Assembly: GCA_963965975.1 (NCBI GenBank) | Contig: OZ014419.1 | Span: forward strand, 6,342,150-6,406,149 | Direction of reading: 5' to 3' | Length of the DNA: 64,000 bases | Source of the DNA: Xestospongia bergquistia | Taxonomy: Eukaryota > Porifera > Demospongiae > Haplosclerida > Petrosiidae | In this document: one piece after another, positions 1 to 64,000 of the stretch | How the letters are laid out: every line of letters starts with the position of its first letter | How positions within the stretch are numbered: position 1 is the stretch's first letter | Notes under the pieces: generated by a model | Seen by the model: only the letters and a program-made list of their open reading frames with translations | Databases searched by the model: none | What the model was told of the DNA's origin: nothing | Translations under genes and position numbers: made by a program

Positions 1-571
1 AAGATCTCTGCATGCAAGCTCTCCCAGTTTATAGTAAGTTCTGCTGTAAGATTTTACGGATCAATTGTCATGTATTCACGAAGTTCTGTCACAATAAACA
101 GAGCATTTTAAAGTATTTTGCCAAGCCTAGCGTGACAGATACTGTAGTAACGATCGAGGCGGTCTATTAGCGGCGATCGACGTCGACGGTCTAGTTACAT
201 GACGTCATAGCACCGCAATGCAAGCAAATCCGAAAGTGCGTGTGTTATCCCTGTCTTATGGATTGTGCAAGGAAGGATTTTCCTATAGCCATCATTAGCT
301 TTGTGGTGAAAGTCTCCGGATCAAAGTCAATAGACTCTTTCTAGAAAATTTAATTACTAGCAAAGAAGACAGAGTTAGTAAATTAATTTCCTTCTGATCT
401 AGAGAGGGCACTCAAAGCAGAAGGCCTTAACCGACATCAATTTCTTGACGTAGATACATCTTTCCTCTCAAGGTCTTATTTTCACATGGTTGACAAATTT
501 GGTGTGGTGTGTTTCTAGTAAACTCAAAAACTTTATTTATTGAGTCAGAACAACAGCATTTTTTCCTGGCC
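1..571. other. Upstream non-coding region
   Basis: I see no convincing coding exon here. The stretch 130-250 is relatively CpG-rich compared with its AT-rich surroundings and holds a CRE octamer, so it may be the promoter of the NRPS-like gene downstream. The window may also begin inside a larger intergenic region or a long 5' intron. Confidence 0.4.
200..207. promoter_or_regulatory. CRE-like octamer
   Basis: A perfect palindromic TGACGTCA (CREB/ATF consensus) lies about 370 bases before the first candidate start codon. It is in the only CpG-containing segment of the upstream region. Its function is inferred from the motif alone. Confidence 0.35.
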
Positions 572-905
572 ATGGAAACCGTAAAGGATTTACTAACAGA
601 TGCAGGTCATTCTTCCTATACCATTAAGATAGGTATGTCATGTTGGCAATACAGTTAACAAATGTATCACATGATTATTACATCATATGTTAACAATTCA
701 CAGCTATAATTTGTTTCATCTTCAAGGACCCGCCACAATGTTTACTACTACCGGTTATTCCTCCTCAATACAGGCTGTTCATTTGGCTCGTCAATGTGAC
801 TTATTAATATCTTGTGACATGGCAAAAGGTGTTACACTTGATGTTTCACTTATCACTAAGACTGGTCATCTCAAATACCCTTCAAAGTTTAATGAAGAAG
901 ATTGA
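572..905 (+). CDS. Possible 5' exons of the NRPS-like gene
   Basis: An ATG at 572 opens a short exon (to 632) that ends in a good donor (G|GTATGT). A pyrimidine-rich acceptor ending TTCAAG at 726 leads into a second open segment, and the phase agrees across the splice. The joined peptide starts METVKDLLTDAGHSS and runs about 80 residues to a TGA at 903-905. It overlaps the long downstream frame but is in a different phase, and I find no splice site that would link the two. I do not recognise the peptide; it lacks the HHxxxDG motif expected at this place in a condensation domain. It could be a real 5' end broken by a frameshift, an unrelated small gene, or chance. Confidence 0.3.
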
Positions 906-3612
906 TGTGTCCACTGATCAATCCTATGTTGAATTAGTAAATGTAGAGAGAAGCTATCTCAACTCAAAACAGTCAGACATTGACAATAATTATTGGAATA
1001 AAGAATTTTCAACAATATCTCCTGATGTTAATCTATCAGTCCTTCCTAAAGCTGAGTCCACATGGAATGATTCCACAACATATAGAGCCAAGCATATTAG
1101 CAAAATTGTTCCTTCAAATACTCTTAAAGAAGTAGTCAAATGGTGCAATATTTTAGAGATAACAGAATTCCAATACTATCTGGCATGCACATCACTTGTG
1201 CTACAGAGATACCTTGGTGTCAATGAGATTACTCTTGCAATTCCAGTTAGCACTCGCACCGACATTTACCAGAATTCAGATGGGTCATTTGTAAACACTG
1301 TTCTTTTTAAAGTGAAAGTTGATTTAAACAAAACAATGAAAGAGTATGTTAAATCTGTCGCTAACAGTTGGATGGAGACACTTGCACACTCACAATATCC
1401 TCTCGACCGAGTAGCGGAAGCAGTATGGAAAGAACATGGAAAAAGTATCCACTCCTTTTGCTGTGTGATGTTCAACTACTATGCATCAAAAACAAAGCCC
1501 ACATGTGAGCTTAAAGTACATGCCAAGCATGCCAAAATGCCTTTAACATTAAATGTTTCACATTATGGTAACACAATAGAGGTTGTGTGTGAATGGTCAG
1601 CAGAGTTACTTGATGACAACATTGTAGGAAGGCTGTTTGATGGTGTCATTAGACTATATGATGTAGCATTAAATGTAGAGAATGACAAACTATGTGACAT
1701 TGATGTCTTGTCCCCACTTGAACATAAACTGCTGCAGTCATTCTGTCATGTCGAGTCTAGTCACCAAAAGACTTCTATACCGGTTCACAAAACATTCAAA
1801 GAGTACTCTACTATGTATCCAGATTCTATAGCAATTGTTTTCAATGATTTGACACTGACATACCGTCAACTCGATAATATATCCTCACAAATTGCTAATG
1901 AACTATATCAAAGAATAACTGACAGCAATGTTCTCAAAAGAAATCCTGTTGTCGTTGTAATGAAGAAAGATGAATATGCCATAGCTTCGATTTTGGGAAT
2001 CTGGAAAGCTGGGGGTCATTTTTTACCAGTTCCAATGAGTACTCTTTGTACTGTTTTGGACGACATTTTTGATAAATGCATACCAGCTGCAGTACTTCAT
2101 AACACTCCACTTAACGAAGAAGTTATCGAAAATATCACACGTCACAATTGTCCACTACTGAATGTAACCAATCTTGTTAAAGAATTGGACACTATGAAAC
2201 CCCAACAAGTTCAGCAAGACAATATAGCAAACTTGGATGTAGCTGCAGCAGATGATGACCTTGCATATATTATAAGGACATCTGGATCAACTGGCACACC
2301 AAAACAATGTAGAGTTTCACACAAAAGCCTCGGAATAATAGCAAATGCATGGAAAGATGCCTACAAGATGGATACCTTCTGCATCAACGTCCTTCAATGG
2401 GCACCTCTAACATTTGATGTATTCATTGGAGATTTAGTCAGGAGTCTGGTATGCTCGCCTGGCCAAATGACCATTTGCCCAGATGAATTTAGATTAGATG
2501 TAGCCCATATACTTAATCTCATAAAAGAAAGGAATATAACTATCGCTGAGGTGACACCTCAGTTTGGTTTGCAACTAGTCCAAAATGCTTGTAATAACAA
2601 GTTAGAGTCTCTAAAATTGTTTATTTTAGGCTCTGATGTGCTTCATAGTCATGTATATGAAAAGGTCAAAAACAGCCTAAAAGAAGGTCAAAGATTAATC
2701 AATAGCTATGGAATGACTGAAGCCACTATAGATTCAGCATTCTTTGAAGGAAATAACATTCCAAGAACAAGAACAGGAACTGTGCCAATTGGTCGGCCTT
2801 TACCCAGCGTAGCCATGCACATCTTAGATTCCACAACTTTACAACCATGTCCTGTGGGTACAATTGGTGAGCTGTATATCAGTGGTGACGTTTTAGCTTC
2901 AGGTGATCTCAACATTGTTCAATTGAGTGGTATTAATTGCAAAGGTCTGAAGACGGGTGATGCTGCTTGCTGGTTACCATCAGGTGACATTGAATTATTT
3001 GGTAGATTAGACAGCATGGTTAAAATAAGAGGTTTCAGAGTAAGTACTACAGAAATTGAAAGCAAGATCGTTCAGTTCGTAACTGGTGTTAAAGATGCTT
3101 GTGTTGTTCCCTTGAGTATCAGTGAGAGTACTGGCCACAATGAATTTTTATGTGCCTTTATAACTTTAGAAGATAGTACCGACAAAAATATAGTAAATCA
3201 ACCTGCAATGTATAACCAGTTGAAAGGCAAAGTTCCATACTACATGATACCAGATGTCATACATACATTAGACAAACTACCTTTGACACCTCATGGAAAA
3301 GTCAACTACAAAGCTCTTCCAAAGTTGTCTCAAATGTTGCACAAACAACTTTGTCCTGTAGAAACAGAATCTCAAATTCAATTAAGTTTAAGAGACCTGT
3401 TTTCAGAAGCATTAGGAGTATCAGATTCGAGTTGGATTAATCACGAACTGACTTTCATTCAACAAGGAGGCCATTCACTTGTACTTGTCTATTTTTGTTC
3501 ATTGATCAAACAGAAAATTAACTGTAATTTGGGAATTGCAGACGTTTTCTCTCACCCCAGCATCAAAACATTGGCATCTTATATAGAAGAAAAGAAAAAA
3601 CAAAAAAACTGA
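841..3612 (+). CDS. NRPS-like protein, partial C domain + A + carrier domain
   Basis: A single exon of about 923 residues with the architecture of a nonribosomal peptide synthetase module. Residues ~30-290 match the C-terminal half of a condensation domain (tryptophan motif near YWNKEF, then PVSTRTD), but the N-terminal half with catalytic HHxxxDG is not visible. Residues ~310-830 form an adenylation domain: A3 core SGSTGTPK, A4-like FDVFIGD whose Asp usually binds the amino group of an amino-acid substrate, A5 SYGMTEAT, A7 TGD, A8 GRLDSMVKIRGFR, and A10 LPLTPHGKVNYKAL with the catalytic Lys. Near residue 876 a carrier domain shows GGHSL, with the Ser that would take phosphopantetheine. No thioesterase or reductase follows. 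The first ATG is at 841; the frame is open a little further upstream. Base composition matches the neighbours, but the intronless 2.8 kb frame does not. Domain identity is secure; product, substrate and activity are unknown. Transfer from a bacterium or fungus is an inference. Confidence 0.85.
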   Translation: MFHLSLRLVISNTLQSLMKKIDVSTDQSYVELVNVERSYLNSKQSDIDNNYWNKEFSTISPDVNLSVLPKAESTWNDSTTYRAKHISKIVPSNTLKEVVKWCNILEITEFQYYLACTSLVLQRYLGVNEITLAIPVSTRTDIYQNSDGSFVNTVLFKVKVDLNKTMKEYVKSVANSWMETLAHSQYPLDRVAEAVWKEHGKSIHSFCCVMFNYYASKTKPTCELKVHAKHAKMPLTLNVSHYGNTIEVVCEWSAELLDDNIVGRLFDGVIRLYDVALNVENDKLCDIDVLSPLEHKLLQSFCHVESSHQKTSIPVHKTFKEYSTMYPDSIAIVFNDLTLTYRQLDNISSQIANELYQRITDSNVLKRNPVVVVMKKDEYAIASILGIWKAGGHFLPVPMSTLCTVLDDIFDKCIPAAVLHNTPLNEEVIENITRHNCPLLNVTNLVKELDTMKPQQVQQDNIANLDVAAADDDLAYIIRTSGSTGTPKQCRVSHKSLGIIANAWKDAYKMDTFCINVLQWAPLTFDVFIGDLVRSLVCSPGQMTICPDEFRLDVAHILNLIKERNITIAEVTPQFGLQLVQNACNNKLESLKLFILGSDVLHSHVYEKVKNSLKEGQRLINSYGMTEATIDSAFFEGNNIPRTRTGTVPIGRPLPSVAMHILDSTTLQPCPVGTIGELYISGDVLASGDLNIVQLSGINCKGLKTGDAACWLPSGDIELFGRLDSMVKIRGFRVSTTEIESKIVQFVTGVKDACVVPLSISESTGHNEFLCAFITLEDSTDKNIVNQPAMYNQLKGKVPYYMIPDVIHTLDKLPLTPHGKVNYKALPKLSQMLHKQLCPVETESQIQLSLRDLFSEALGVSDSSWINHELTFIQQGGHSLVLVYFCSLIKQKINCNLGIADVFSHPSIKTLASYIEEKKKQKN

Positions 3613-4039
3613 GGAGCATGTATATAATGATAGTGAAATCGAAACTGAAAAATATCACATGATGATGTCATAACTGGTGATCACGAAAGTACTACTTATA
3701 ACATTACCAATATAATTATTGTAACCGTTTATGATTCTAAGAGTTAGAAACCATTTTAAGATTGTATACAGATAACTACAGTGATGTATGCAATGTAACA
3801 AACAGATGAATTTTCATTATATTTAATTTTATTGTTTTATTAAGTATATTAATGCTAACACAATAATAATATTATACACAAAATTATAGAGAAAAAATCT
3901 GAAAATAAATATAAATGAATTAATTTAGACATCAAGTATATATCAGAGGAAAATAAAAAAATTGTCACAATTTTTAGCAGAAACTATAGCAAACAACAAA
4001 AGACTACAACAACAAAAACATTAAAAAATATTTTAAAAA
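3613..4039. other. Convergent intergenic spacer, AT-rich
   Basis: Very AT-rich sequence between the 3' end of the NRPS-like gene and the 3' end of the membrane-protein gene on the other strand. AATAAA at 3904-3909 is a plausible polyadenylation signal for the plus-strand gene. I see no other feature. Confidence 0.5.
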
Positions 4040-7000
4040 TCAAAACCACGATACAGACATTACTGGTGGTATGATAATTCTCAAAGTCACAAAAAGTAAA
4101 CCAATAAAAGTGCCACCTGCCACTAATGATGGATACATTGGAACCAATGCTATCTTAGCCTAAACAAACAAGACAAATCGATATCCCATTTAATGCATTG
4201 AAGTGTAAACAATAATATACTTACAGTATATCTTGTGGCATTAGTGTAATTTAAAAATATTTCAAGTTCTAAATCAGGAGTGTCTGAAAAGACGTAAGGT
4301 CGAGATGCTATTTCTAATCCTAATCTACGAATAGATTTGCCTTTTGAAGTTAAAATAGTTGCCTGAAGATAAAAGAACGAGAACATGTAATGTGAGCTTT
4401 TCTGAGTAGACAAAAAGTGGCACTTTGAATCTAATATTTAATAACAAGATTGTAATTATAATAAATATTTAAAGGTACTTCTATTGCAATGGAATACTGT
4501 ATGTGGAGCAAGAAAAATATTTAATTCTCAACTATATAGACAAATGAAACTCATTAGTTGTTACTGTCCACTATCTTCTTCTTATTTGTGTCCTCCATTT
4601 TTAACAAATAATAACTAATTCTTAGACCAGCCAATACAATATGCATTAAACTAAAGTAATGCTCTTTCTAATTACTCAATGAGTAGATATATTTACTCTC
4701 CTCAAAATGAAAAAAAAACAGTACTTATAAAAATGCATACATCAAATAAAATCACTTACTAACTGTCTGTGTCCTTACCATAATTATTGGAAAGGCTAGG
4801 GCCACCAACCACACTATCACATTAAGGAATCCAAGGACAATACTCTGTATATGTCCACTCCCTGTCTTACTTAGATCTAGGTAGGCTGTGTGAAAACAAA
4901 GTTTTAGACAAATGGTGGATGGACAGACAGCATGTACTTACAATAAATAACATTACCAACAAAAATAAAAATGATTAGTGTCATCACAAATGACAGTCGT
5001 CCATTCAACACCTTCAAGAATTCGTATATACGGTAAATTTCCTGTAACGAGTAAAATTAAAATAACTCCGTCAACTCTTTTGAATAATTTTGGGGGTTAA
5101 TTATAAACTCATAAAATGTTGCACACAAATGGAGTAATACTCAATGAGTCAGTATTAGGGTTACATGGCCTGATAGACTCAATAAGTTTATAATCTTAAG
5201 AAATCTTTAAAAAATGGCATTGAGACTGCAGCTCTAACTAATCCTAAAATCATCAACCATGCAAAGCATGACAGACAAAAGTCACATTAACATTCATTCA
5301 CCTTAGAGGCATCAGTTAGTGTCTTGTATCGTTTGTTTTCCACTTTATCTGTGACATTTTCAATGTAAAAAGAGAGTAGTTGACATTGTGAAACATAGTT
5401 AATAACAACAGCAATGTAGAGGAGATCAAAAAAGATAAAACCAAACATAGAAGTACAGACAAAAGCATAATGAAGACCCTCATATATATCTTTTGAACTA
5501 AAGAAATCATATAATATTATTAACATGAAATGTTCATACTTGATCTTTGTACTATTTTGCTAACCAAGCTCACATTTTTAATTGATTCCATTGATCATCA
5601 GCAGTTATATTATTAGTGAACCATTGAATTATTAAAGTTTTCTGATCCAGTTGAAGAACAAAGATGCGTAACACACTAGTAGCAAATGAAGCTATAAACC
5701 AAATAACTCCTGACACTAAAAAAGTCCTATTTTTAAAGGAAAGTCAGTCATCACAAAAATATTGAACTCACAATAATATGAAGACAGGTTTTTTACGAGA
5801 CTTGTTAACACTGGTATAATTATAGCTTAAAAAAACCTACATGGTACATTATGTGTTAGAGCAGCTTGCTTTCCCTTTCCCTCTCTATCCCGTACTTAAT
5901 GTTATCTTACTGTTTCTGATAAGGATGATAAGTGTTCTGGTTCCAAGAATCTAAAAATTAGTAGACCTCCGAGGTAAGATCCCAGTATGAGTACATATGA
6001 CACAACATCAGTACTGACAATGTGTTTATCACAGTCTAAGATAGAGAAGTTACCTCTTGGTATAGGAGGACGAGACTGAAAGACAACAGGTGTACAATAA
6101 TTGTTAATACTAATATTCATATACACTACAGTTTAATGTAAGGATTATGATATAGAACAATATATAACTATGTCCAATGTGTTCTCTGTTAATATCCAAT
6201 AAAATTTCTTATAGGTTTAGCATTAGGAAATGCATGTAAAAACATGTACAAGGACTTACAAGAATTTGTTAATAGTATTAGTAAGTAATTAGGGGTTTAG
6301 GGACTTTAATAATACAACAACTATGATTAATATCAAAAATAGATTTTTTTGGCTCTATTTAAAATTCTCTACTTTATAATCAAAAAGTTGACATTGTTCT
6401 GTCTCTGTAATTTGAAATTCTTATCCATTTAAATTAAAAATGCAGATTTTGTGATCGAGGTGAACAACAAGAAAATAAAGATGTATCATTAAAGCATATT
6501 ATAGCCATACTTACTAACCCTAGATCGAGAGAAACATGTGGTAATTTGAGAACCACAAGCAAATATTAACATTAAAAATATAAAAACAGGATAGACAACA
6601 TTGCAAATCTTCTTATACAAAGATGTGTGATCATATCGAGACCGAAAGGTACGCCATCCAATCTGTCGATGTAATTAATAAAATAATAATAAATAATAAA
6701 ATTTACATACCACTTTCAAGAAGAAATGATAAGGACCAAGAACATATTTCTTACACAAATCAAGAGCATTAGTAGTGGCTGGTTCATCCCAACCAAAAGA
6801 AGCCAGACCTGTCTACATTTGTAGTTGTAATAAAGATTCAAAAAGGAATAGTTTGTTTAATGCATCCAGTACTCTTACCAAGTTATCATATTCATTTTCC
6901 CCTTCTGACTCAATAAAACTTGTTGTAAATTGTCCTTCAATGATTCCACCTGAACTTCCTTCTTCTTCAATTTCTCTTTCCTGTCTACTATCGAGACTAG

Positions 7001-8396
7001 ATGATCTAGTGGGGACTTCCAACACCTCTATCTCTGCTCTACCATCCTCTCTATTAGACAAAAAAACATCAATAAGAATCGCCAATTAGTAAGAACTTGG
7101 TCAATATAACACACTATTTCAAATGTAGATGCTATCTAGGTGAAGATCTTGAAGCTTCAGTTTAGACATTAATAACAAAAATTGTCCTAAGAGTTTTAAT
7201 AAAAACAGTAAGATCAAGAAGCTAAGAACCATGTTATCAAGATTAATCATCACAATTTCCTATGAATATCTCACAGTCCCATCTTAATGTCATATGGGAC
7301 CGTGGGATTATGGACAACATAGGATCTTCCTAAATCGTAAAGATGGGATTGTGGGATTAGGACAGCATAGGACTTCCTCTAGATATTCCAATAGCAAACC
7401 ATGCATGGAGAAACAATGGTAAGAATGCAGAAATTAAACTATTTTTTGTTACAAGTTATAAGATAATAAAAAAACATTTTGGCATACAAAGTGTGCCAGG
7501 TAAATATGTTCCTATGGTGACTAGTCATTTAGTTACCTCATGATAATGGTGGACATTAATATATAATGTACTAATAACACTATTAATATATAATGTACTA
7601 ATAACACTATTAATTATAATGTACTAATAACACTATTAATATATAATGTACTAATAACACTATTAATATATAATGTACTAATAACAATATTAATATATAA
7701 TGTACTAATAACAATATTAATATATAATGTACTAATAACAATATTAATATATAATGTACTAATAACACTATTAATATATAATGTACTAATAACACTATTA
7801 ATATATAATGTACTAATAACAATATTAATATATAATGTACTAATAACAATATTAATATACAATTACAATTAATTACCTATGAGAATATAATGTAATACGT
7901 TGTATATTATTTTGAGATGGACGAGGACTCCTTTTATGAGTATGTCTACTATCTTGTGTCTTCTGGTATCTTAACCGACCTAAATAACCACTATTTTAAT
8001 GGATATGTTTTTTTAAAGCAATATAAATATTAATACTTTAAAGAGTTTATGGGAAAGCAATTTTAGTTGCTATCCCAGCACAATACTATGTGCATTGTTG
8101 TTTTGTTAAAGTTTATATAGGATGATTACTAAAATCAATTAAACATTTAATCGGATGTATCTTAACTTGTTAATATGTTAAAAGAAATCTTTCTAAAATG
8201 TGGTCATTTCTACTCTATAGCTATGAAAAGCAAATTGTTGGTTGTTTTATAAATTTAAAATACCAACACACACACACAGAGTCATTACATTATTGACTAA
8301 ATTTTAAGGGACACTTTCAAAAACCAGTAAAATCTATCAGTAATGAAACTGAAACTAAATTGCTAATTTAACTTTCCTTTAGTTCTAGTATTTGGA

Positions 8397-8432
<36 letters not shown>

Positions 8433-8668
8433 AGACCTCATCATATTTCCTCATCTTTTTTAATCATAAACATGACAGAGCATGCATAGTAACCTTTTCA
8501 CTTACCAGTCCACGTTTTTCTCTGGTTTTTTCCTTTCTTGTCTTCTGCTGGTGTTAGACTTACATAGCTGGCTCCTGAATTGACATTTGTATCGTCTCTG
8601 GTAAGAGCAGTACTCATTTCTTGAGTTTTTTCAAGAGAATCTGATTCCAATAATGGTCTTTTATCCAT
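4040..8668 (-). CDS. Multi-pass membrane protein, gustatory-receptor-like
   Basis: About ten exons joined from splice sites on the minus strand. The ATG at 8668 starts MDKRPLLESDSLEK; exon 2 lies near 7877-7982; an acidic cytoplasmic exon near 6890-7050 follows. Hydrophobic exons come next: GWRTFRSRYDHTSLYKK then VVYPVFIFLMLIFACG (near 6530-6660), VVSYVLILGSYLGGLLIF (5910-6075), GVIWFIASFATSVLRIF (near 5570-5720), FGFIFFDLLYIAVVINYV (5300-5510), FVMTLIIFIFVGNVIYC, IVLGFLNVIVWLVALAFP, and a last exon ending in TFIGLLFVTLRIIIPP. That gives about seven membrane segments. The INYVSQCQLLSFYIENV segment after a membrane span, and a last exon that leads straight into the final span, recall the gustatory-receptor-like branch of the insect chemoreceptor superfamily, which are ligand-gated cation channels. 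The long charged N-terminus is unlike insect receptors; PHTF-type proteins are an alternative. The gene is real with high confidence; the family call is an inference. Confidence 0.6.
7557..7858. repeat. 27-bp tandem repeat, about 11 units
   Basis: Eleven copies of a 27-base AT-rich unit, each containing GTACTAATAAC followed by A(C/A)TATTAATATATAAT. One unit is 25 bases. The copies alternate between two variants (AACACTA and AACAATA). The block sits in the second intron of the gustatory-receptor-like gene. Open frames across it are artefacts of the 27-base (9-codon) period. Confidence 0.95.
8397..8431. repeat. (GA)n microsatellite
   Basis: A run of GA dinucleotides in the first intron of the membrane-protein gene; on the coding strand it reads as a CT tract. 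Confidence 0.9.
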
Positions 8669-9322
8669 TTCACGTGATATCCTTTTGGGACAAACACAGT
8701 GCTCAAAGCAAGATTGTTATGAAGAAGTCCGTTGGTAGGAGGATTGTCTCGCGTGATCATAAATTTAAAAGGTCAACAGAACTAATAGCTGATATGAAGG
8801 TATATATATAAACTGCAACATTATTCTTGTAATAACTTTAGTTGAATAGAATTTACTGTGTAGTGTGTGATAAAGATAAAAGTATTATCAATTTTTCTTT
8901 ATTTTATTTAGTGTTGATCTTTAATTTTATTTGTTGAACTTTTTATTTAATAATTCTCTTAATTAAACCACAAATAAAGTCATTCAATATAATATATATA
9001 TATAATTATATTATAACTTCTACACATTAAGTCACCCACACCCAAGAACTGCATACAAAACTATATTTTCTTAGAGAAACAAAAAGAACAAAACACTACA
9101 GAATCAATTCCAATGAAAAAGATATAATAATTATAATAATTATAAATATAATATTATTATATACTTTTTCTTCTAAGCATAATATCTAACCTACATTACA
9201 TAAGAACAAACTTTATTTTATAACTTAGGATATATTTAAGAATATAAGAATTTCCAAGCTGGGAAAATTATGTATTTTTATCGAGTGCATGTCACATGAT
9301 GATGGAATAATCAAATTAACTG
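8669..9322. other. Spacer between membrane-protein gene and TFDP
   Basis: This holds the 5' flank of the membrane-protein gene and the 3' flank of TFDP, both on the minus strand. It is AT-rich with a short TATATA run near 8998. I see no additional gene. Confidence 0.5.
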
Positions 9323-12300
9323 TTAATACGATACTGAAGGATTGGAAAGGGTTAAAAATGAGTTAATAGAATTGCTTGCCTGTTCAATCTTTTCAGGTTG
9401 AGTTACGGGTGGTAATGGGTGTAGTTCTGATGGTACAGTGTTGCTAGGCAACCCATTAGATGGAGATGATAAAACTGGTGTCGTGCTTTCGTATTGAACT
9501 GGGTCATTATTTGATGTGGGTAACAAATGTTGTTGCCTTAAAAGGGATGACATCACATTTTGTTGCAAAGAAGCCAGGACTTCAGCCATGCTCACAGCAG
9601 GTAATGGTTGAACTGTTACCACTTTAGTACCAGGTGACTTACTCTGGGAAGCTAGGGCACCAGTAGTTGATGGAACTCCTTGTGCCTTTAATAATGGTGA
9701 TTGTGAGGTTTGACTAATAGGTTGTTGAGTACAAGGACGTATTCCACCTGAAAGAGGTGAAGGTGCAAAGTTTAAAGGTCGTGCTGTTACAGTGCCACCT
9801 CTAAACGATGTAGGAGATTGAGTAGGAGAGGAGAGTGATTGAGACACTGCCGCTGAAGACATTAAAGGAGAGGAGAGTTGCTGTTGTTGAAGTTGTTGAA
9901 TGGTAGAGAGAGCAGCAGCAACTGAGGCAGGATTCTGTGAATTAACAAGTGCAGCTGCTGCAAGAGCTAAAGGAGAATTAGCAGAGATTGTAGAGGATGT
10001 TCCATTGCTGTGCTCGCTCAAAAGAGGGGTGAGTAGAGTGGCTGCAGCATTAGCTGAAAGATGTGATGCAGGTGTTGATGTTTGAGGTGGGACTGGTGCA
10101 ACAACAGCTGGTAATGAAGTAGCTACTGGTGATTGAGGTACTGCATTATTTAACAGTGATATTTGAGCCATTTCTGTTTTTTTAAAAAATAAAAATTGTC
10201 ATTAGATTTTAGAATTGGCACTTTAAAAATTAATTACCAAGTTTGTCAAATATGTTATTGAAACAGAATATCAAATTCTTTGTTGATAAACATGAACACA
10301 TAAGTGATCGTGCACACTCATCTTGTGGGTGTGGCTTAGTGAGAAATGTCTATTTACAAGAAGTACTATATAACAATAAACCGACCACTCATTGTCTTCA
10401 ATAACAGTTAGTGTTACATCTAAAGACACATTCAACTGTCATTAATAAACACAAAAGCGTGCTAACTTCTATTATTACAAGTATGCATCTTATAATATGA
10501 GGCATTCACTGAAAGGACACATATTATATTCTTATTAAATGTGAATTTATGATATTCTGTATAAGTAGTGACATTTATTTACCATCAAGGACAGGCTCAA
10601 ATATCTTGGGTAGCATCCCTTTAGCAGTAGCCAGTGACTCAGCCGTACATTGACCTGACTGCAGGCCACAGTCCATACCCATTTTTTTGAGGACATCAAC
10701 ATCTTGATGCAACTCAAATGTATTATCGAATGTGAAGACGTACTCTGATCTGTTAATACAAAGATATAGTTAATATGTGTGTATACATTGTAAGTCATTT
10801 TCTTGTAGACAATATATACTTGTTACAAATTCAAGTCTCATTTAGTAGTCTTAATTTTTTACATATGATGTCATTATGACTCATATTATGAGATACATCT
10901 GTGCCTGATTATACAGTAATTTATCATACTTGTCACTGGATATACTGCAGTCAATGGTTGTCTGTTTGTTAGTGTTAACTAATATAAACGGGAGACCGAT
11001 AGCGGAGTGTTGACTAGGTGAATCACCAGCCTCAGCTCTCTCACGATTTCTCTTGATTAAATTCTTTAATGTAAGAATCTAATAGAAAATTAAACAAAAT
11101 AATTTTTTAGATAAAAAATTAGATATAGAAAAAATTATGATATAAATTTGACTGAGAGTAAATTCAGAATGTAAAGTTTTATAGAAAGTACATGAAAGAA
11201 AAATATTTATAAATTATGGAAAGCTAGCTTACTTGTATAACCAGTTCATGAAGTTCTGCTGTTTTCTTTGATATACGATCTTCATATGCTGACAACTCCC
11301 CCTGTAATAATATGTAATTAATATATCAAGTGACATGTAGTTATTAAAGGAGTGTGTCAGTGGGAGTGGTTTATAATCACCTGTATGTGTTCACATTCTT
11401 GTACTGAGTTTGTTGGTAACCCAATCCAATGTATTTCCTTCTTTTCTTTATTAATAATATTCATAGCCATTAGGACATTTAATGCATCATAGACACGCCT
11501 CCTAATATTCTTTTGATCAATTTGCTAAAATGAATAGAAAGGGCAGCACATTAAAATTAATATATTTTTAATTGCATTAGGTTTCTAGCTAATGCCATAT
11601 ATCCTAAATTTATAGACTCAATCTATGGTTTCACTAACCCCATCTTGTCCAGCCTTCCTCTCTGCTTCACCTAATTCTTTCACTAATTCATCAGCTACCT
11701 GAACAAGGTTAAAAATTTATTAAATATTCACACATCATACAAGCCACACAAATTAAATAAGTGCTGTCAAGTGCTCTTATTGTGGTATAAAAGAATGCAA
11801 TAGTATCTTCCTCTTGAGGTAAAAAACCATACTAATATTCTCCTTATACCCTCCTCCACAAATACTCACATCAAAGACAATGCTAATAACAGGAGGGCAT
11901 AAGATGACTATCAGCTGAATACACTTTACTTGCCACACCACAACCATAGTCACTATGTATACTGTAGCTATGAATCATAAGTTATCCTAAGATTGTGCTG
12001 ATGATTTAAAGAGTCAGCTAATAAAACAGGTTTGGTTGATCTTACAAATTCTTTGTGTCATCTATTAAAATACAACTAGCAACTTAATTATTACTATAAT
12101 TTAAAACAATTCTTAAGTTAGTGTATCTATTATATTAGCATAAGTTACTGCATGCCATGCCTACTACAGTCTGTTTTTAGAAGAACATGTATACTTGATA
12201 TGACAAGCACATCAAATATGACCTTTATATCGAGTTTTACAGTATCATAAAAATTAATATACTTTATTGAAAATAATTAGGATCCTTAACTACTTAAGTG

Positions 12301-18623: not shown

Positions 18624-21600
18624 GGTCTCTGTAATAGGACAACAAGGACAACAGTCAAAGTGTAGAGGGATTTATTTAAGGGAACCTCATCATTTACAAA
18701 GAACTACACATCATGCTGTAACTATAGAACCTTCTTTTAATGATAATGCTCGTATGTTAAGAAGACAATACATGTTACATGATTACTTTGATTTCCATCC
18801 TCATTATCTATAGCTGTCAATCTTAAGCTAGAGTTCACTCAAGAGGTGGCACTTGTTCCTACTCAGCCGTGGGTACAAGCTCCTAAACATATCATTCTAA
18901 CTGCTTCAGGTACATAATATCAACTGATGTTTTGTCAGTCAAATGGATTCCAGTTATTATACCCACAATGTAACTTTGTAGAACTATTTGTACAATACTT
19001 GTATACTAATTTTAAGAAATCACAAATTTACACTGTTATATCTTATTAATAATAGCTCGTCAGTTTGGTGTGAGCATTGATGAATCTGGACTTGAACCAG
19101 GACCTCATTTTGCTGAGGTAGACATTCAGTCATATGTTTGTCATGTGACGTTGTTCATGTCATGTGATCATTTTATAATTTCATGTGATTCTCTTTATTT
19201 AGTTGTGTGGCTATAGTCTTAGAGACAGTCATAACAAAGGTCCATTGTTCCGAGTACCTATCACTGTCATTATACCATCACTTCTTAATGACAGGTACAT
19301 ACTCATTACACAGTAATGACAGGGTCGTGTATACTCATTACACAGTAATGACAGGGTCGTATATACTCATTACACAGTAATGATAGGGTCGTATATACTC
19401 ATTACACAGAGTCATACATTTTGTGCATTAGTGACAAGGTCACATTTGAGTGAGTGTTCAAATGTAATTAATGACACAGTCATATTTGAGTGAGTACTCA
19501 ATGTAATTGAGGTCATAGTTGAATTAGTATTCAATGTAATTGATGACACGGTAATGTTTGTATTGCAATAATTAAAGGATCATAGGTACATGTACTCATT
19601 TGGCACTAACTTTAGCTAGGATTTGAACCAAGAACCTTTTGAATACTAGTCAGATACTCTATCATTGAGCCACTGAAGCCTGGATAAGGAAGAGTAATTC
19701 ATACTCATATAATGAGCATAATCAAGTTTGACAATTACACTGAGATTCTCTCTCTTTAGTTACTAGTGTAATGTGTAACATCCCAGCATGTTTATCTAGT
19801 TGTCTCTCTCTAGTAATCTTTATATTTATTTTATAGAATGTCATATAAAGTGGAGAAACTAGAGCTCAATAATTCAGCAATTAAGAGATATTTCTTTCAT
19901 ATACCAACAGAAGCTACTTGGGCAGGTAATACATATAGTACATTTGATTTTATGTAATAATTCTATTTGCTAACAATATGAGGTGAATTTTTAACCTAAT
20001 AGCACCCTTTGTCATTTTCTCTCTATCTCTCTCTCTCTTTCTCTCTCTCTCAGAGATCTTAGTAGAAAATCTCAATGAAGATAAACGATCACGTCTTTGG
20101 ATCCATACTATACAACTCCTCTCTGAAAAAGCTTACCGAGAGAAAGAGACTTTGGATACTCTCCAATTAGAACCAGGTGCTAATAGTACTGTTGTAGTAC
20201 CTACTATGGTAAGTCAAGAACTATTGGTACACATATAAATTGTATTGTTACTGTGGTTATTTTTTAAGGGTGGTCACACAATGGAGCTATGTGTGACTCA
20301 GTACTGGTCAGAGCTCCACCCAGTATCAGTATCTGTTAATATGACATTCCATAGTCTCCGCCCATCCTGTGCTGAATTGTCTTTGGTAAGAACTACTTTA
20401 TTAAGTATTCATACAAGAATAATTATTATGTGAACAAAGGGTTAACAATGTAAACTAATGTAGATTAATTTATTATAATTATGATAGAGTCTTGATAAAA
20501 ATTCTCTGTTCTTTAGCATGCCAGTAAGTGTTGGACTCGACTAGATGTTAGTGGTAGTTATCAACTTGAAGAGCTGCACCCTGAGTTTAAATTAACTCAC
20601 TATGCTCAATCTAAAAGGTAAGTTTCCTTGTACATATCTCATTACTCTATCTGACATCCTATCCTCATTTGTTATTCCTTTCTTGTACATGTCTCATTAC
20701 TCTATTTGATGTCCCAATCATCCATTCAATCTTTCGTTCATTATTCTTTTCCTTTCAGACCGACTGAAGCAATCATCAAACCACTGGGATCATTAGATGT
20801 ACTACCTAATGGAAAACAAATGTATGAACTGCTACTTACATATACTTTCCACATAGTATGTGTATTACATTGTATTGTGTATATTACATTATGGTTCATA
20901 TTAGTCTAAGCCTGCTGAAGTGAGACCCAATGCATATCTATTGAGTGATCTCTTATATGAGAATCCTTATGGAGGTCAATTATGGATGATATATAATCAA
21001 CACAAACAATTAATGGGGTCTGGAGATGCTTACCCAAAAAACTACAACGTGAAATTGGAGAAGGGAGATTATACATTGCTAATGCAGGTTGGGTAATGGG
21101 TGACATGTAGCTACTGAGGTCTCTCTCTGTCTCTCTCTCAGGTTCGTCATGAAACAAAAGGGCAGTTAGATTCTCTCAAAGATATGCCTATAATGTTAGA
21201 AACAAAGTTATCTTCTACAATAACAATGGATGTAGCTGGTACACGTTGTGGTCAAACAAAATGGGGCTCAGCTATTAAAGTTAAACCTGGTAGCACTCTT
21301 CCTATATATGTAATGGCTGTCCCAGATGACAAGTGAGTTAATCGTTAGATATCAGTAATAACAGTATAGTGAGTCACTATAGAAATGATCTTAGTACTAA
21401 TATCTAACTCAATACAACTATATCTCCCTTCTATGTCACTAACATGTTCAATACTTCCTAACTAACTAAATTACTTGACAACTTCTGTCTTTACAGGTTG
21501 TTAAAATCCGTTGGATCACAGAGCCACAGTGGTGACATTTTATCTGGTACATTTACATTGAGTAAGAATGATGTTGTCAAGAAAAAGGTGATTTCTTCAT

Positions 21601-31426: not shown

Positions 31427-36183
<4,757 letters not shown>

Positions 36184-42818: not shown

Positions 42819-45130
42819 GAATAAATGAGACAAAACTGCAGGCAGGCAGACATAAATGACCACACCTACTAAGTACCTTATAATCTTTCATTTGCCCAAA
42901 TAAAGCAAGAATAAAGGTTGACCACACCCCTCGTAACATAGTATCAGCTACTCTGAGGTGCCATTTTTGAAGCGCTGCAGGTCCAACCTCATAAGGCACA
43001 CTATCAAGTGTTTTACGTGGGAAAGAGGAGAGCTTTAGTAGTTCCTCATATATGAAGACAGAATTAGGATCTGAAAACTAGAGAATTATATTGATCAATA
43101 AAAACACGCTCTATCTATTTCTGCTCTATCTGTTCACGTGAAAGTACATTCATTTACTTTACATATTAATTAAGAGCTCAGGACTTCTTAGAGGGTGAAA
43201 GTACATTCATTTACTTTACATATTAATTAAGAGCTCAGGACTTCTTAGAGGGTTAAAAATAACTATCATAGCTGTATTGTTCAGTTTCATATATTTCATC
43301 ATTGCTCAACACCACTTATCTGTCCATTGTCTGTCCATCCATCCATTTTTGTCTGTCTGTCCATCCATTCATTGACCCATTAATCCACCATACCCTTTGC
43401 GTAAGTGCAGTGTCAGTTTGTGAATCATTTAGCATTTGATGTACAAACATAACACGTGATATTTCTGCCATTTTGTGTGTTAGAAGCATTTGAAGTTGTT
43501 GAGACCATATGCCACCGTGGGTAGTAGAGCCTGCTTCATGAATACAAAAGACGGGATGTGACCCATCGGCAGCCACTGAATAATGATCTTGTATAATAAG
43601 ACTGCTTAGAACTGGAAGATCTATTTGAAAAAATCAAGCTTAAACTCAATACAAGTATCACTGCAATATACTAATAATATACTGAGATATGCAAAGAGTA
43701 TACTGAAAATATACTAACTTTTCTTCTCGTCAGTGAGATAATAGCTATGAAATGCACTTAAGAATTCAGGAGACGATGGATCAATATCTTGAACCTTTGC
43801 AATCAACAGGACAAATGTCATATCCTCTGACTCGATGGTAAACTCCTATATAGAATCAATAAAATACTGGTATAAAACATACTACAAATATAGTCTACTA
43901 AGAGCATGCATACATTAACATGAGATTATAAGCTGCACAATAGTGACACAACTAAACTGTAAGAGGTTATTAAACTATGTGGATAAAATTAATAGTGTCA
44001 TATATTTTTATTATTAGATAGGATAATGATTCTAGTTTTTCTATATGGACATCATGCTGTGTTCTAAGAGATCAATTGTGAACATGCTGTAATGACAATG
44101 ACTATCATTACAAGTAAAGACACATTCAAGATTGAATGTTTCTACAACAGATATATAATGCTCCCCCTCTCTTCCTCCTCCCTCCCCTAGCTAACTGACC
44201 GAAGGATCTTTTCCTTTTTCCAGAGGATAAGTCATTTGGACTTTCTCTATTCCTCTAATTCTAGCAGTGGTCAATATTGTTGTATAACAACTTTCTTTCT
44301 TTAATTGGTTCTTAAGTTCTTTCATTGAGAGATTACGAACACTGGGTACTACCTATAATAATAACAAACAACAATTGAGTCAATAATAAAGTTGAAACTA
44401 GGGCTGCATAAGTCTGAGTCTAAGGAACTGGACTCAGGACAAGACAAACTCGAGTTTTTCAAAGAGCTAGTCATCAAACTTACCATTCTCAATAAGCAAA
44501 GTAGACTCTGTAAAATACTATCTGACATTGGTAATGGTTGTTCTGTATGTCTCATAATAATACCAATTAAATGATTAAAGAGATAATGAGCAGCATTAGG
44601 AGGGATAGTGGAGAAATGACACAAGAGAACATGGAATGGTTTTAAGATGTCACCCTGTAATTAAAAAAAAATAAATTTGATAAATGGATGAATGGTTTAC
44701 CAGGAGATCTTCAGCAGTCTCTTCCACAGTTGAGTTAGGTCGTCTCTTCTGGTCTCTAACAATCTGGTAAAGTGTATTAAACTGGTTTAATAGAGGAGAA
44801 AACAAGCTTTGTGGGTGCTCCAACATACATTGTAAAAGTGCTTCTTCGGCAGCTTCAGCAGCTGTTAAAAAATAAAATCATTTTCTGGCCATTTCATTCA
44901 TGCATCCATTTCTACTATATGGACATTCAATCCTTACCTCTTGCAGGTGTACAAGGCATTATTGTAGTGGGTGTGGTCTCTGCATCAGTGGTTTCCATGG
45001 AAACATTATTGAGACTCAGTGCCCGTATAATGAAATTAATAAGAGGAAGAAGAGCGTTTGGAAATAGTGTAGTGAACTTGTGATATTCTTTAACAGTAAA
45101 AATACCTATAGAAGAAAAATAAAGGAGAGT

Positions 45131-54290: not shown

Positions 54291-54479
54291 AGTGATCAGT
54301 CATGACCTAATGAGAAGAAAGAAGGAGAGAGAACACAGTTATACTTCTTTGTGTTATTGGAGTACATAGCCAAAGGCTTGTACTCTAGTGTTACAGAGGA
54401 AATTAAATTTATTAAAGATTTTATATAAAAACTACTATGAGAGTATGACACAGTAATGCACAAGTGTGTGTGTGCATGT

Positions 54480-54823
<344 letters not shown>

Positions 54824-55473
54824 ACAATGAGAACAATGAACAAGCTATTATATAACAGATGTGCATGTGTCTCTGACTGGTGAGTGTTGAAAGTCTGAAA
54901 ATATCATTAATAAGATAGATATTGTTACCATGTCAACTGATTCACCCACTAGTGAGGGACAGGTTATCAATTCTTGGTTATTATTACTGATCTTTTTAAA
55001 CTTATAATCAACAGATTAAATGTCATAGTAAATTGTGATGTAATAATGTACTAGTTTATCTATTGTAGTTCAGTTTACATTATTTTTGTAATATTGTAAT
55101 TATCCTGACTTGCAGCTGTCTCTCTCTCTCTCTCTCTCTAACAGACACACACACACACACACACTAATTATGTATTAATATATAATTATAGCAAGAAAAA
55201 AAATATAATTTAAATGTTACAATAAGCTATTATTGATCATATCATAAGTTATAAAGACATTGAAGGGAACACACAATAACTGACCACAGCTTTAAAAACA
55301 TTAGTAATATTAATTAAGATTAGGGTGAGTCAGTTGACATAATTCTAGACATTAAGAGTAATTTAGAAAATATCATTTATAAGATAGAGATCTCATTCAT
55401 TTTAACAGACAAACCTATGAGGTCACTAACATTGATTCATCTCAAAATATGTTTTCACACATCTCAGTCACAC
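54824..55473. other. Spacer between UNC80 and the secreted-protein array
   Basis: AT-rich, with short (CT)n and (CA)n runs at about 55118-55163. From about 55260 on it resembles the 5' flank seen before other array members (CTGACCACAGCTTTAAAAAC and onward). No gene. Confidence 0.6.
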
Positions 55474-56248: not shown

Positions 56249-56301
56249 TGAGCACTCCATCATCAGAATTTTAGTCTATCAAGTCTACAAAGTGCTCAAT
56301 A

Positions 56302-57423
56302 ATGGCCAATATATTCTCTATCATTATAGCATTGTGGACTATGGCAGTGCTAGTTACTGCTTCTACTTCTACTACTTGTGATAATTCACAGCTAGTAAAA
56401 TCTATTGCCGCTCTCGCTGATAAGATTGATATGCTTATTAACCTGACTCAATCATTTGTTGATCCTATCCCTCCTATAAAGGATGTAGGAAAAGACTCTT
56501 GTTCCTGTGAAAATAACACACAAGCAATTGAAGATAACACTGAAGAAATCGAAGAGCTAAAAATCAAGAATGAAGAGTTTGAAGATCAAATCAAATATCT
56601 TAACAGAACGACACAATTTTTGGTTCAGGCATTTAAAAATTTAACAAGACAACCAGATTACTGCGAAATTTTCTTCCCTCCACCAAAGTCCTGTCAAGAA
56701 ATCAAAGATAAATGTCCAAGTAGTCCCTCAGGTTATTATACTTTAGTAAGTGGTAATGTTTATTGTCATATGGAGGATCTATGTAACACTAGTGGAGGAT
56801 GGACAAGGATTGCCTATCTCAATATGTCCGATCCACATGAACAATGTCCTTCTGGATTTAAACTGTATAATCAAAATGGCATAAGAGCTTGTGGAAGAGC
56901 TGCATTACGACAACAATATTGTGAGTCACACAAGTTCTCCTCTAACATCCAATACTCTCAAGTTTGTGGAAAACTTATTGGATACCAGTATTGGTCACCC
57001 GATAGTCTTAGTACTGGTACTTCAGATATTAATAGCTATTATGTTGATGGAGTTAGTCTTACATATGGTAGTCCAAGAAAACATATCTGGACTTTTATCA
57101 CAGCTAATTCAGAAGATGGAAACACAGGCTCACATTGTCCTTGTGCTACGGAGAGTACATTGGCTGTTCCCTCTTTTATCGGAAATGATTACTTTTGTGA
57201 ATCAGGAAGTCCAACCACTCCAACCAGAAAATTGTATACTGATCCATTATGGGATGGTGAAAATTGTAGATCAAAGGAGAATCCATGTTGTCAGGTATCT
57301 GGTATACCTTGGTTTCATAAAACATTACAAATCTCCACAAACGATGATATAGAACTACGTATATGTAAAGATTATAATGATGAAGATACTCTAATAGGTT
57401 TCTATGATATATATGTGAAGTAA
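56302..57423 (+). CDS. Array copy 1: secreted coiled-coil/fibrinogen-like protein
   Basis: A single-exon protein of 373 residues. Residues 1-20 are a signal peptide (FSIIIALWTMAVLVTAS). Residues ~72-112 form a coiled coil (IEELKIKNEEFEDQIKYLNR). From residue ~131 comes a Cys-rich domain that begins like a fibrinogen-related domain (SCQEIKDKCPSSPSGYYTLV, VYCHMEDLC, GGWTRIAYLNMSD). It then continues in a way typical of a sponge-expanded family (CGKLIGYQYWSP, YYVDGVSLTYGSPRKHIW, HCPCA, CCQVSGIPWF, ELRICKDYNDEDT). Several N-glycosylation sequons are present (NLTQ, NNTQ, NRTT, NLTR, NTSG, NMSD). The likely role is an oligomeric extracellular recognition or matrix protein; this is inferred. All Cys of the domain look intact, and its own TATA promoter lies just upstream. 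No intron, unlike most genes in this window. Confidence 0.85.
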   Translation: MANIFSIIIALWTMAVLVTASTSTTCDNSQLVKSIAALADKIDMLINLTQSFVDPIPPIKDVGKDSCSCENNTQAIEDNTEEIEELKIKNEEFEDQIKYLNRTTQFLVQAFKNLTRQPDYCEIFFPPPKSCQEIKDKCPSSPSGYYTLVSGNVYCHMEDLCNTSGGWTRIAYLNMSDPHEQCPSGFKLYNQNGIRACGRAALRQQYCESHKFSSNIQYSQVCGKLIGYQYWSPDSLSTGTSDINSYYVDGVSLTYGSPRKHIWTFITANSEDGNTGSHCPCATESTLAVPSFIGNDYFCESGSPTTPTRKLYTDPLWDGENCRSKENPCCQVSGIPWFHKTLQISTNDDIELRICKDYNDEDTLIGFYDIYVK

Positions 57424-60198: not shown

Positions 60199-60251
60199 TG
60201 AGTACTTCATCATCAGAATTTTAGTCTATCGAGTCTACAAAGTGCTCAATA

Positions 60252-61397
60252 ATGGCCAATATATTCTCTATCATTATAGCATTGTGGACTATGGCAGTGC
60301 TAGTTACTGCTTCTACTTCTACTACTTGTGATAATTCACAGCTAGTAAAATCTATTGCCGCTCTCGCTGATAAGATCGATATGCTTATTAACCTGACTCA
60401 ATCATTTGTTGATCCTATCCCTCCTATAAAGGATGTAGGAAAAGACTCTTGTTCCTGTGAAAATAACACACAAGCAATTAAAGATAACACTGAAGAAATT
60501 GAAGAGCTAAAAATCAAGAATGAAGAGTTTGAAGATCAAATCAAACATCTTAAAAGAATGACAAAATTTTTGTTTCGGGCATTTAAAAATTTAACAAGAC
60601 CGGAACCTGAACCATCACTACCACCAGATGACTGCGGAATTACCTTCCCTCCACCAATGTCCTGTCAAGAAATCAAAGATAAATGTCCAAGTAGTCCCTC
60701 AGGTTATTATACTTTAGTAAGTGGTAGTGTTTATTGTCATATGGAGGATCTATGTAACACTAGTGGAGGATGGACAAGGATTGCCTATCTCAATATGTCT
60801 GATCCACAAGAACAATGTCCTTCTGGATTTAAACTATATAATCAAAATGGCATAAGAGCTTGTGGAAGAGCTGCATTACGACAACAATATTGTGAGTCAC
60901 ATAAGTTATCCTGTAACATCCAATACTCTCAAGTTTGTGGAAAACTTATTGGATACCAGTATTGGTCACCCAATGGTCTTAGTACTGGTACTTCGGATAT
61001 TAATAGCTATTATGTTGATGGAGTTAGTCTTACATATGGTAGTCCAAGAAAACATATTTGGACTTTTATCACAGCTATTTCAGAAAATGGAAACACAGGC
61101 TCACATTGTCCTTGTGCCACGGGGAGTACATTGGCTGTTCCCTCTTTTATCAGAAATGATTACTTTTGTGAGTCAGGAAGTCCAACATCCCCAACCAGAA
61201 AATTATATACTGATGATCCATTGTGGGATGGTGAAAATTGTAGGTCAAAGGAGAAGCTATGTTGTCAGGTATCTGGTATACCTTGGTTTCATAAAACATT
61301 ACAAACCTCTACAAATAATGATATAGAACTACGTATATGTAATGATTATGATGATGAAGATACTCCAATAGGTTTCTATGATATATATGTGAAGTAA
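60252..61397 (+). CDS. Array copy 3: secreted coiled-coil/fibrinogen-like protein
   Basis: A 381-residue, intronless close paralogue of copy 1 with the same signal peptide, coiled coil and Cys-rich fibrinogen-like domain. Differences are few. The hinge between coiled coil and domain is longer (RPEPEPSLPPDDCGITFPPP, where copy 1 has only RQPDYCEIFFPPP), NRTT in the coiled coil is lost, and scattered substitutions occur (HKLSCNIQYSQ gains a Cys where copy 1 has Ser). The frame is complete to TAA at 61395-61397. Promoter and 3' flank match copy 1. The near identity points to recent duplication or gene conversion. Confidence 0.85.
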   Translation: MANIFSIIIALWTMAVLVTASTSTTCDNSQLVKSIAALADKIDMLINLTQSFVDPIPPIKDVGKDSCSCENNTQAIKDNTEEIEELKIKNEEFEDQIKHLKRMTKFLFRAFKNLTRPEPEPSLPPDDCGITFPPPMSCQEIKDKCPSSPSGYYTLVSGSVYCHMEDLCNTSGGWTRIAYLNMSDPQEQCPSGFKLYNQNGIRACGRAALRQQYCESHKLSCNIQYSQVCGKLIGYQYWSPNGLSTGTSDINSYYVDGVSLTYGSPRKHIWTFITAISENGNTGSHCPCATGSTLAVPSFIRNDYFCESGSPTSPTRKLYTDDPLWDGENCRSKEKLCCQVSGIPWFHKTLQTSTNNDIELRICNDYDDEDTPIGFYDIYVK

Positions 61398-63225: not shown

Positions 63226-63278
63226 TGAGCACTTCATCATTAGAATTTTAGTCTATCGAGTCTACAAAGTGCTCAATA

Positions 63279-64000
63279 ATGGCCAATATATTCTCTATCA
63301 TTATAGCATTGTGGACTATGGCAGTGCTAGTTACTGCTTCTACTTCTACCACTTGTGATAATTCACAGCTAGTAAAATCTATTGCCGCTCTCGCTGATAA
63401 GATTGATATGCTTATTAACCTGACTCAATCATTTGTTGATCCTATCCCTCCTATAAAGGATGTAGGAAAAGACTCTTGTTCCTGTGAAAATAACACACAA
63501 GCAATTAAAGATAACGCTGAAGAAATTGAAGAGCTAAAAATCAAGAATGAAGAGTTTGAAGATCAAATCAAACATCTTAAAAGAATGACAAAATTTTTGT
63601 TTCGGGCATTTAAAAATTTAACAAGACCGGAACCTGAACCTGAACCATCACTACCACCAGATGACTGCGGAATTACCTTCCCTCCACCAACGTCCTGTCA
63701 AGAAATCAAAGATAAATGTCCAAGCAGTCCCTCGGGTATTTATACTTTAGTAAGTGGTAATGTTTATTGTCATATGGAGGATCTATGTAACACTAGTGGA
63801 GGATGGACAAGGATTGCCTATCTCAATATGTCCGATCCACAAGAACAATGTCCTTCTGGATTTAAACTGTATAATCAAAATGGTATAAGAGGTTGTGGAA
63901 GAGCTGCATTACGAAAACAATATTGTGAGTCACACAAGTTCTCCTCTAACATCCAATACTCTCAAGTTTGTGGAAAACTTATTGGATACCAGTATTGGTC
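63279..64000 (+). CDS. Array copy 5: secreted coiled-coil/fibrinogen-like protein, cut by window end
   Basis: Open from ATG 63279 to the window edge (about 240 residues). It has the same signal peptide, coiled coil and first half of the fibrinogen-like domain as copies 1 and 3. The hinge has one more Glu-Pro pair than copy 3 (RPEPEPEPSLPPDDCG). SGYYTL becomes SGIYTL and IRACGR becomes IRGCGR. No stop or shift within the visible part. Whether the gene is complete cannot be judged. Confidence 0.82.
   Translation, partial: MANIFSIIIALWTMAVLVTASTSTTCDNSQLVKSIAALADKIDMLINLTQSFVDPIPPIKDVGKDSCSCENNTQAIKDNAEEIEELKIKNEEFEDQIKHLKRMTKFLFRAFKNLTRPEPEPEPSLPPDDCGITFPPPTSCQEIKDKCPSSPSGIYTLVSGNVYCHMEDLCNTSGGWTRIAYLNMSDPQEQCPSGFKLYNQNGIRGCGRAALRKQYCESHKFSSNIQYSQVCGKLIGYQYW

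Follow-up and report, generated by a model that had tools for sequence, protein, structure and literature searches.

A half condensation-adenylation-thiolation gene in a sponge nuclear genome: possible remnant of a bacterial-type PKS-NRPS hybrid

Sponge natural products are commonly credited to symbionts. A stretch of chromosome from the sponge Xestospongia bergquistia raises the question of whether the animal itself carries a gene for a nonribosomal peptide synthetase (NRPS) and, if so, what kind of gene it is and where it came from. Animal NRPSs are known from other phyla, and the main text of a survey of them contains neither 'Porifera' nor 'sponge' (PMC10531068). PKSs are stated to be present in all phyla investigated apart from sponges and ctenophores, and the same source reports no ketosynthase (KS)-containing proteins in sponge genomes besides the mitochondrial ones (PMC10764717). 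A sample of the open-licence literature yielded no description of such a host NRPS from a sponge. The window analysed here is the whole stretch of 64,000 nucleotides (C9:6342150-6406149; contig OZ014419.1 of assembly GCA_963965975.1, called C9 below), near the start of which an original prediction, made from the letters, had placed an NRPS-like gene.

The gene is an open reading frame with the following features, given in window coordinates:

841..3612, + strand: open reading frame, half C-A-T, 923 amino acids plus stop; start at ATG 841 or ATG 892
904..1734, + strand: C-terminal half of a condensation domain; motifs C4-C7 present, C1-C3 with HHxxxDG absent
1798..2904, + strand: large part of the adenylation domain (Pfam AMP-binding)
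3052..3300, + strand: C-terminal adenylation subdomain with the A10 lysine, aa 820 (Pfam)
3388..3585, + strand: carrier (thiolation) domain (Pfam), with Ser 879 of GGHSL at 3475-3477

The frame runs for 923 codons without a stop (934 codons when read open from 808), and the longest in-frame open run in 2000 mononucleotide shuffles of 892-3609 was 168 codons. Pfam Condensation is matched from profile position 168 to 455 of 456 (aa 22-298, E 3.5e-20), AMP-binding from 2 to 382 of 384 (aa 320-688, E 9.1e-52), AMP-binding_C at aa 738-820 (E 6.8e-07) and PP-binding at aa 850-915 (E 3e-08). The adenylation domain is an AMP-binding domain of the NRPS type with its ATP-binding cores and the A10 lysine; A1, A3-A5 and A7-A10 are present together with the carrier GGHSL, and A2 and A6 are degenerate. 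T480, S481, G482, T484, G485, K488, D707 and K820 are invariant over 22 aligned rows, as is S879 of the carrier. The protein is not a complete elongation module, as the condensation half has no HHxxxDG active site. Relative to bacterial rows, nearly invariant columns are changed in the adenylation domain (17 of 73, with the G of 'PKG' and the Y of 'YTSG' among the A3 changes), the carrier (4 of 10) and the half condensation domain (3 of 9). The original prediction of an NRPS C(half)-A-T gene is borne out by the Pfam matches to half a Condensation domain, AMP-binding and PP-binding in one open frame. Its statement that all main adenylation cores are present holds apart from A2 and A6, its single exon holds for the 2.8 kb of domain-coding sequence and not beyond, and its extent of 841..3612 is right for the open frame, although condensation homology begins only at ~904-946. 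The first ~20 codons cross a KS relic out of frame, so ATG 841, ATG 892 and a spliced upstream exon are all candidates for the start.

The relic and two weaker features beside it lie directly upstream:

696..875, + strand: ketosynthase relic around the active site; open frame 675-902, ending in TGA at 903-905
494..655, + strand: possible N-terminal ketosynthase piece '..QQHFFLAMETVKDLLTDAGHSS..' in a second frame, colinear; weak alone, 1.5 bits in one HMM
632..726, + strand: possible short intron (gtatgt...ttcaag), read by eye, that would join both ketosynthase pieces in frame

An HMM built from three bacterial ketosynthases gave 20.3 bits for the frame 675-902, the only match listed when the upstream 10 kb and window 1-3700 were searched; among 54,584 peptides from 300 block shuffles none scored above 5.5 bits. 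When the ketosynthase of a sponge gene on contig C15 (see below) was added to the HMM the relic scored 19.7 bits and the next match 2.8. The C15 ketosynthase as query finds the relic weakly, and the Pfam KS profile matches it below the cut-off (E 0.071). The homology is eroded to a match of ~60 residues in which the active-site cysteine is aligned to a tyrosine (TTGYSSS). KS homology ends at ~875 and condensation homology starts ~40 bases later, at ~916; the two frames are on the same strand and are offset by one base. A functional ketosynthase in the same protein, the mark of a PKS-NRPS enzyme, is missing, since the relic is in another frame and has lost its cysteine. The relic, which the original prediction did not contain, appears to explain the halved condensation domain. 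The simplest history would be a single deletion within a KS-...-C-A-T gene that removed everything from mid-ketosynthase to mid-condensation domain. The reading that we favour, with about even confidence, is that the sponge nuclear gene may be the surviving C-terminal end of a bacterial-type PKS-NRPS hybrid whose A-T part has been kept by selection. The half condensation domain would then serve as a folding platform for the adenylation domain and not as a catalyst.

Simulated neutral change breaks a frame of this kind fast: 7.5% of runs were stop-free at 0.02 substitutions per site, 2% at 0.03 and 0/400 at 0.05. Selection on the half C-A-T part therefore seems to be recent or present; the adjoining KS stretch lies in broken frames while the half C-A-T stays open. 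A doubtful but serious alternative is that the gene is a very young pseudogene, killed by the deletion of the ketosynthase and the catalytic condensation half and not yet decayed. The missing HHxxxDG, the ambiguous start codon and some changed A3 and A2 letters would fit such a pseudogene, but the open frame permits only ~2-3% neutral change and the KS relic is far more eroded. If both parts began to decay together, the ketosynthase seems to have been lost long before any release of the A-T part. The changes in nearly invariant columns (17 of 73 in the adenylation domain and 4 of 10 in the carrier) also count against a hybrid remnant under selection. No phosphopantetheinyl transferase (PF01648) was matched in the genome at E <= 0.001 by a search that does not join exons, a null result that is weakened because such a search is blind to introns.

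It is also possible, although we think it unlikely, that the frame belongs to a larger gene in which upstream exons are spliced on (e.g. from an ATG at ~571, with the possible intron at 632), or in which a one-base sequencing error hides an unbroken KS(dead)-half C-A-T frame. The gt-ag intron read by eye can join both ketosynthase pieces in frame, and the KS and NRPS frames are one base apart and abut within ~40 bases. However, the TGA at 903-905 closes the KS frame, and a C1-C3 half was not found in the 10 kb upstream. An HMM of 36 bacterial N-terminal condensation halves plus the corresponding half from contig C13, which recovers the C13 gene at E 1.6e-37, found no N-terminal half in those 10 kb or in window 1-10000 (best elsewhere 3.1 bits).

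Whether the gene was copied from another sponge gene depends on what else the genome holds. Domain counts in the genome are lower bounds, as the best candidates were scored and exons were not joined; on this basis condensation domains were found at two places, in the C9 gene and on C13. The C13 gene and a further megasynthase gene on C15 are, like the KS relic and the substrate pocket described below, new relative to the original prediction:

C13:4517195-4522509 (L011/L012/L013), + strand: NRPS, C-spacer-A-T-spacer-TE, with a probable intron following the C1 region
C15:3558072-3561710 (L033:4073-7711), - strand: AMP-ligase-like-KS-ACP gene of four exons with gt-ag sites

The C13 gene has a frame of 1748 codons with C, A, T and TE matches, to which a gt-ag intron seemingly joins a short exon further upstream that holds the C1 region (14.7 bits); ~250 aa before the adenylation domain have no assigned domain. 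What by eye had looked like a second half condensation domain there scored -1.5 bits, below the 3.9 bits reached by the best of 1000 shuffles, and was discarded. When the C9 protein was searched against the whole genome, the matches were the protein itself, the C13 NRPS (29% identity) and three weaker places that also match AMP-binding (41-49 bits); no intron-bearing source copy was among them, which tells against the retrocopy that had been offered as one origin of the gene. Retrocopying of a spliced sponge NRPS would account for the 2.8-kb domain-coding part without an intron, but we regard it as very unlikely: the sole other condensation-domain gene found, on C13, shares 29% identity over the matched part and has an uninterrupted frame of 5.2 kb of its own, and searches of the assembly found no source copy.

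Joined across three gt-ag introns, the C15 frames encode 1104 aa with no stop and comprise an AMP-ligase-like domain, which by context is a FAAL, a type I-like ketosynthase with residues C, H and H in place (by eye) and an ACP. FAAL relics upstream of the C9 frame were discarded as candidates, the spliced C15 protein giving chance-level matches there, the KS stretch excepted. The other KS profile matches are a tandem pair of two-exon genes on C4, mitochondrial-type in look (by eye), and a thiolase-like frame; C9:2458522, listed under ketoacyl-synt, was rejected as a ketosynthase because by eye it reads like a thiolase. The acyltransferase domain gave one weak match only. Carrier domains were found at six places, namely C13, the C9 gene, C15, two short C9 frames around 2.4 Mb and one of 30 codons on C12. 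The two short C9 frames (C9:2408931 and C9:2416200, + strand), each of 189 codons and ~7 kb apart, are perhaps duplicated acyl carrier proteins.

The contig, the flanking genes and the codon usage place the half C-A-T gene in the sponge nuclear genome. The assembly has 146,460,797 bases in 21 contigs, and the frame sits 6.34 Mb into the 7.49-Mb contig C9 (7,485,090 bases). Ten flanking frames were scanned with Pfam, of which six had an animal-type family match and four had none. Frames with EF-hand and Rab11-FIP3-like coiled-coil matches (the latter below the Pfam cut-off) lie upstream of the gene, and the rest of the window holds TRIM-type B-box/filamin/NHL, SH2-ankyrin, tyrosine kinase and UNC80 matches. 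The neighbouring genes are divided over several frames and therefore appear to be split by introns. The window also contains a tRNA-Thr (19607-19680, - strand), two SNORD61 matches above the Rfam cut-off (32555-32619 and 43231-43305, - strand), a long (CT)n/(GA)n run that is open in several frames (54299-54932), and tandem frames at 56275-57420, 60225-61394 and 63252-63998 (+ strand) that begin almost alike (MANIFSIIIALWTMAVLVTAS...) and form a local gene family. The RSCU correlation of the half C-A-T frame is 0.86-0.92 with five other host frames and 0.20-0.82 with 12 bacterial relatives. Nostoc (0.82) and Melioribacteraceae (0.80), both AT-rich groups, approach the host, so codon usage alone is a weak argument.

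The host is a sponge by its mitochondrial genome, contig C21 (18,997 bases), in which COX1 is open when TGA is read as Trp, ARAGORN finds 25 tRNA genes and a 78-codon frame reads as atp9. Among animals, mitochondrial atp9 is a sponge trait. COX1 pieces with stops at C6:3154917-3155898 and C6:3199148-3200446, on a nuclear contig, are probably mitochondrial insertions. The original prediction was right about a sponge and about host-like composition; its intron-rich animal neighbours stand as animal-type in six of the ten frames, with the intron splitting deduced from the multiple frames.

Relatives in bacteria are distant. The best bacterial match found has 350 bits at 31% identity, so no recent donor is seen; identity to the closest prokaryotic matches found is ~29-32% along the protein. 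This fits the old transfer that had been proposed. A phmmer search of PDB sequences put the linear gramicidin synthase LgrA first, with 98 sequences at E <= 1e-10. Plasmids gave 2014 matching records, the best place in each below 60% identity (26-31% among the 20 matches listed). No relative was confirmed among 14 stretches in a first GTDB scan with the protein alone, or among 4 stretches of viral contigs. A second GTDB scan gave 79 loci at 23-33% identity; they come from the top 80 of 589 confirmed candidates, of which 79 are distinct, and the bacterial sample therefore leans towards rows that resemble the query. In scans of the phyla of the Nostoc, Saprospiraceae and Paenibacillus loci, in which two candidates were scored in most genomes, matches at E <= 1e-95 occurred in 3/386, 1/395 and 1/398 genomes, the best with 334 bits. 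That the sequence comes from a bacterial symbiont or a chimeric assembly is highly improbable. Its domain types are bacterial and bacteria live in sponges, but it lies 6.34 Mb into the 7.49-Mb contig with animal-type genes adjoining it, its codon usage is host-like (weak alone, as noted), and no prokaryote in GTDB or in the 386, 395 and 398 genomes of the three phyla is closer than ~31-32%.

The amino acid that the adenylation domain would activate can be predicted from its substrate code:

2416..2733, + strand: nine substrate-code residues DVGEFLSID (aa 526, 527, 530, 570, 594, 596, 622, 630 and 631)

The tenth residue is Lys, aa 820, and the full code is DVGEFLSIDK. The letters were read by motif and alignment, with the numbering anchored on a GrsA stretch matching 1amu 274-334. 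The specificity prediction that had been suggested as a check thus gives an ornithine-like code of the type DVGE..SIDK. It agrees at 8 of 10 letters with DVGEIGSIDK, which has been read as the ornithine code in a PKS-NRPS hybrid of Streptomyces albus (PMC3992020), and in the ornithine-activating BacB the fourth code position is acidic (PMC10522769). The pocket looks set for an ornithine-like amino acid. Among 199 adenylation segments from 83 bacterial loci, the best 14, unlike the 15th, all carry DVGE or DVGD codes; the best segments of the five loci from the three-phyla scans also have DVGE codes. Trees were built from the best adenylation segments, with shorter and near-duplicate pieces left out. 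In a first quick tree (68 rows) the DVGE rows form one group, and the protein falls within 22 DVGE rows (support 100) and a set of 13 (95). After masking of 27 columns around the code (63 rows), it falls among 14 rows, every one of them DVGE (99/100), but the DVGE rows are then not one clade. An AU test rejects neither placement (with DVGE rows p 0.257, with other rows p 0.224), and the end branch of the protein is very long (1.76-2.18).

If the favoured remnant reading is right, the adenylation domain would use ATP to activate a basic, ornithine-type amino acid and load it onto Ser879 of its own carrier domain, from which it might be passed to a partner in trans, e.g. the C13 C-A-T-TE protein. 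Tentatively, and with low confidence, the sponge could make its own lipopeptide-like compound on a split line of three unlinked genes, the only large ones in which the searches found carrier domains: C15 would activate and extend a fatty acid, C9 would donate the carrier-bound ornithine-like residue, and C13 would carry out condensation and release. In that case the C9 gene would be a one-time hybrid enzyme reduced to a stand-alone aminoacyl donor. The chromosome-anchored C9 gene and the apparently spliced C15 FAAL-KS-ACP gene bear on the statements about sponges in PMC10764717. If the C9 gene is expressed, host-made peptides in sponges become directly testable.

Several known systems resemble the sponge gene in part. 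Bacterial NRPS elongation modules of the DVGE type (Paenibacillus, Melioribacteraceae, Nostoc, Saprospiraceae and Bacillus) share its order of C4-C7, A and T, the code DVGE(L/F)xSID and ~29-32% identity; unlike them, it is a single gene on an animal chromosome with a halved condensation domain, no further modules and no TE. The Streptomyces albus hybrid likewise has a ketosynthase upstream of C-A(Orn-like)-T, whereas in the sponge gene the ketosynthase is a relic, and AT-DH-KR-ACP, half of the condensation domain and a TE are absent (PMC3992020). Ebony and ACSF4-U26 are animal proteins that also combine A and T domains, but their other domains are not condensation domains (PMC10531068), whereas the sponge protein has half of one. 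In trees that contained no Ebony sequence, the sponge protein groups with bacterial NRPS adenylation domains. The nemamides of nematodes are made by PKS-1 and NRPS-1 with PKAL-1, an FAAL-like enzyme acting in trans, from genes that lie apart in the genome (PMC8363725). The sponge C15, C9 and C13 genes might form a dispersed animal hybrid system of this type, although the nematode PKS-1 and NRPS-1 are giant enzymes, complete and of known product. Lastly, antiSMASH has returned NRPS and NRPS-like hits on sponge assemblies, for example one NRPS and five NRPS-like in Geodia barretti, in a study that leaves the choice between contamination and transfer undecided (PMC10542158). In comparison with such counts, the present analysis examines the contig, the flanks and the introns of the sister genes.
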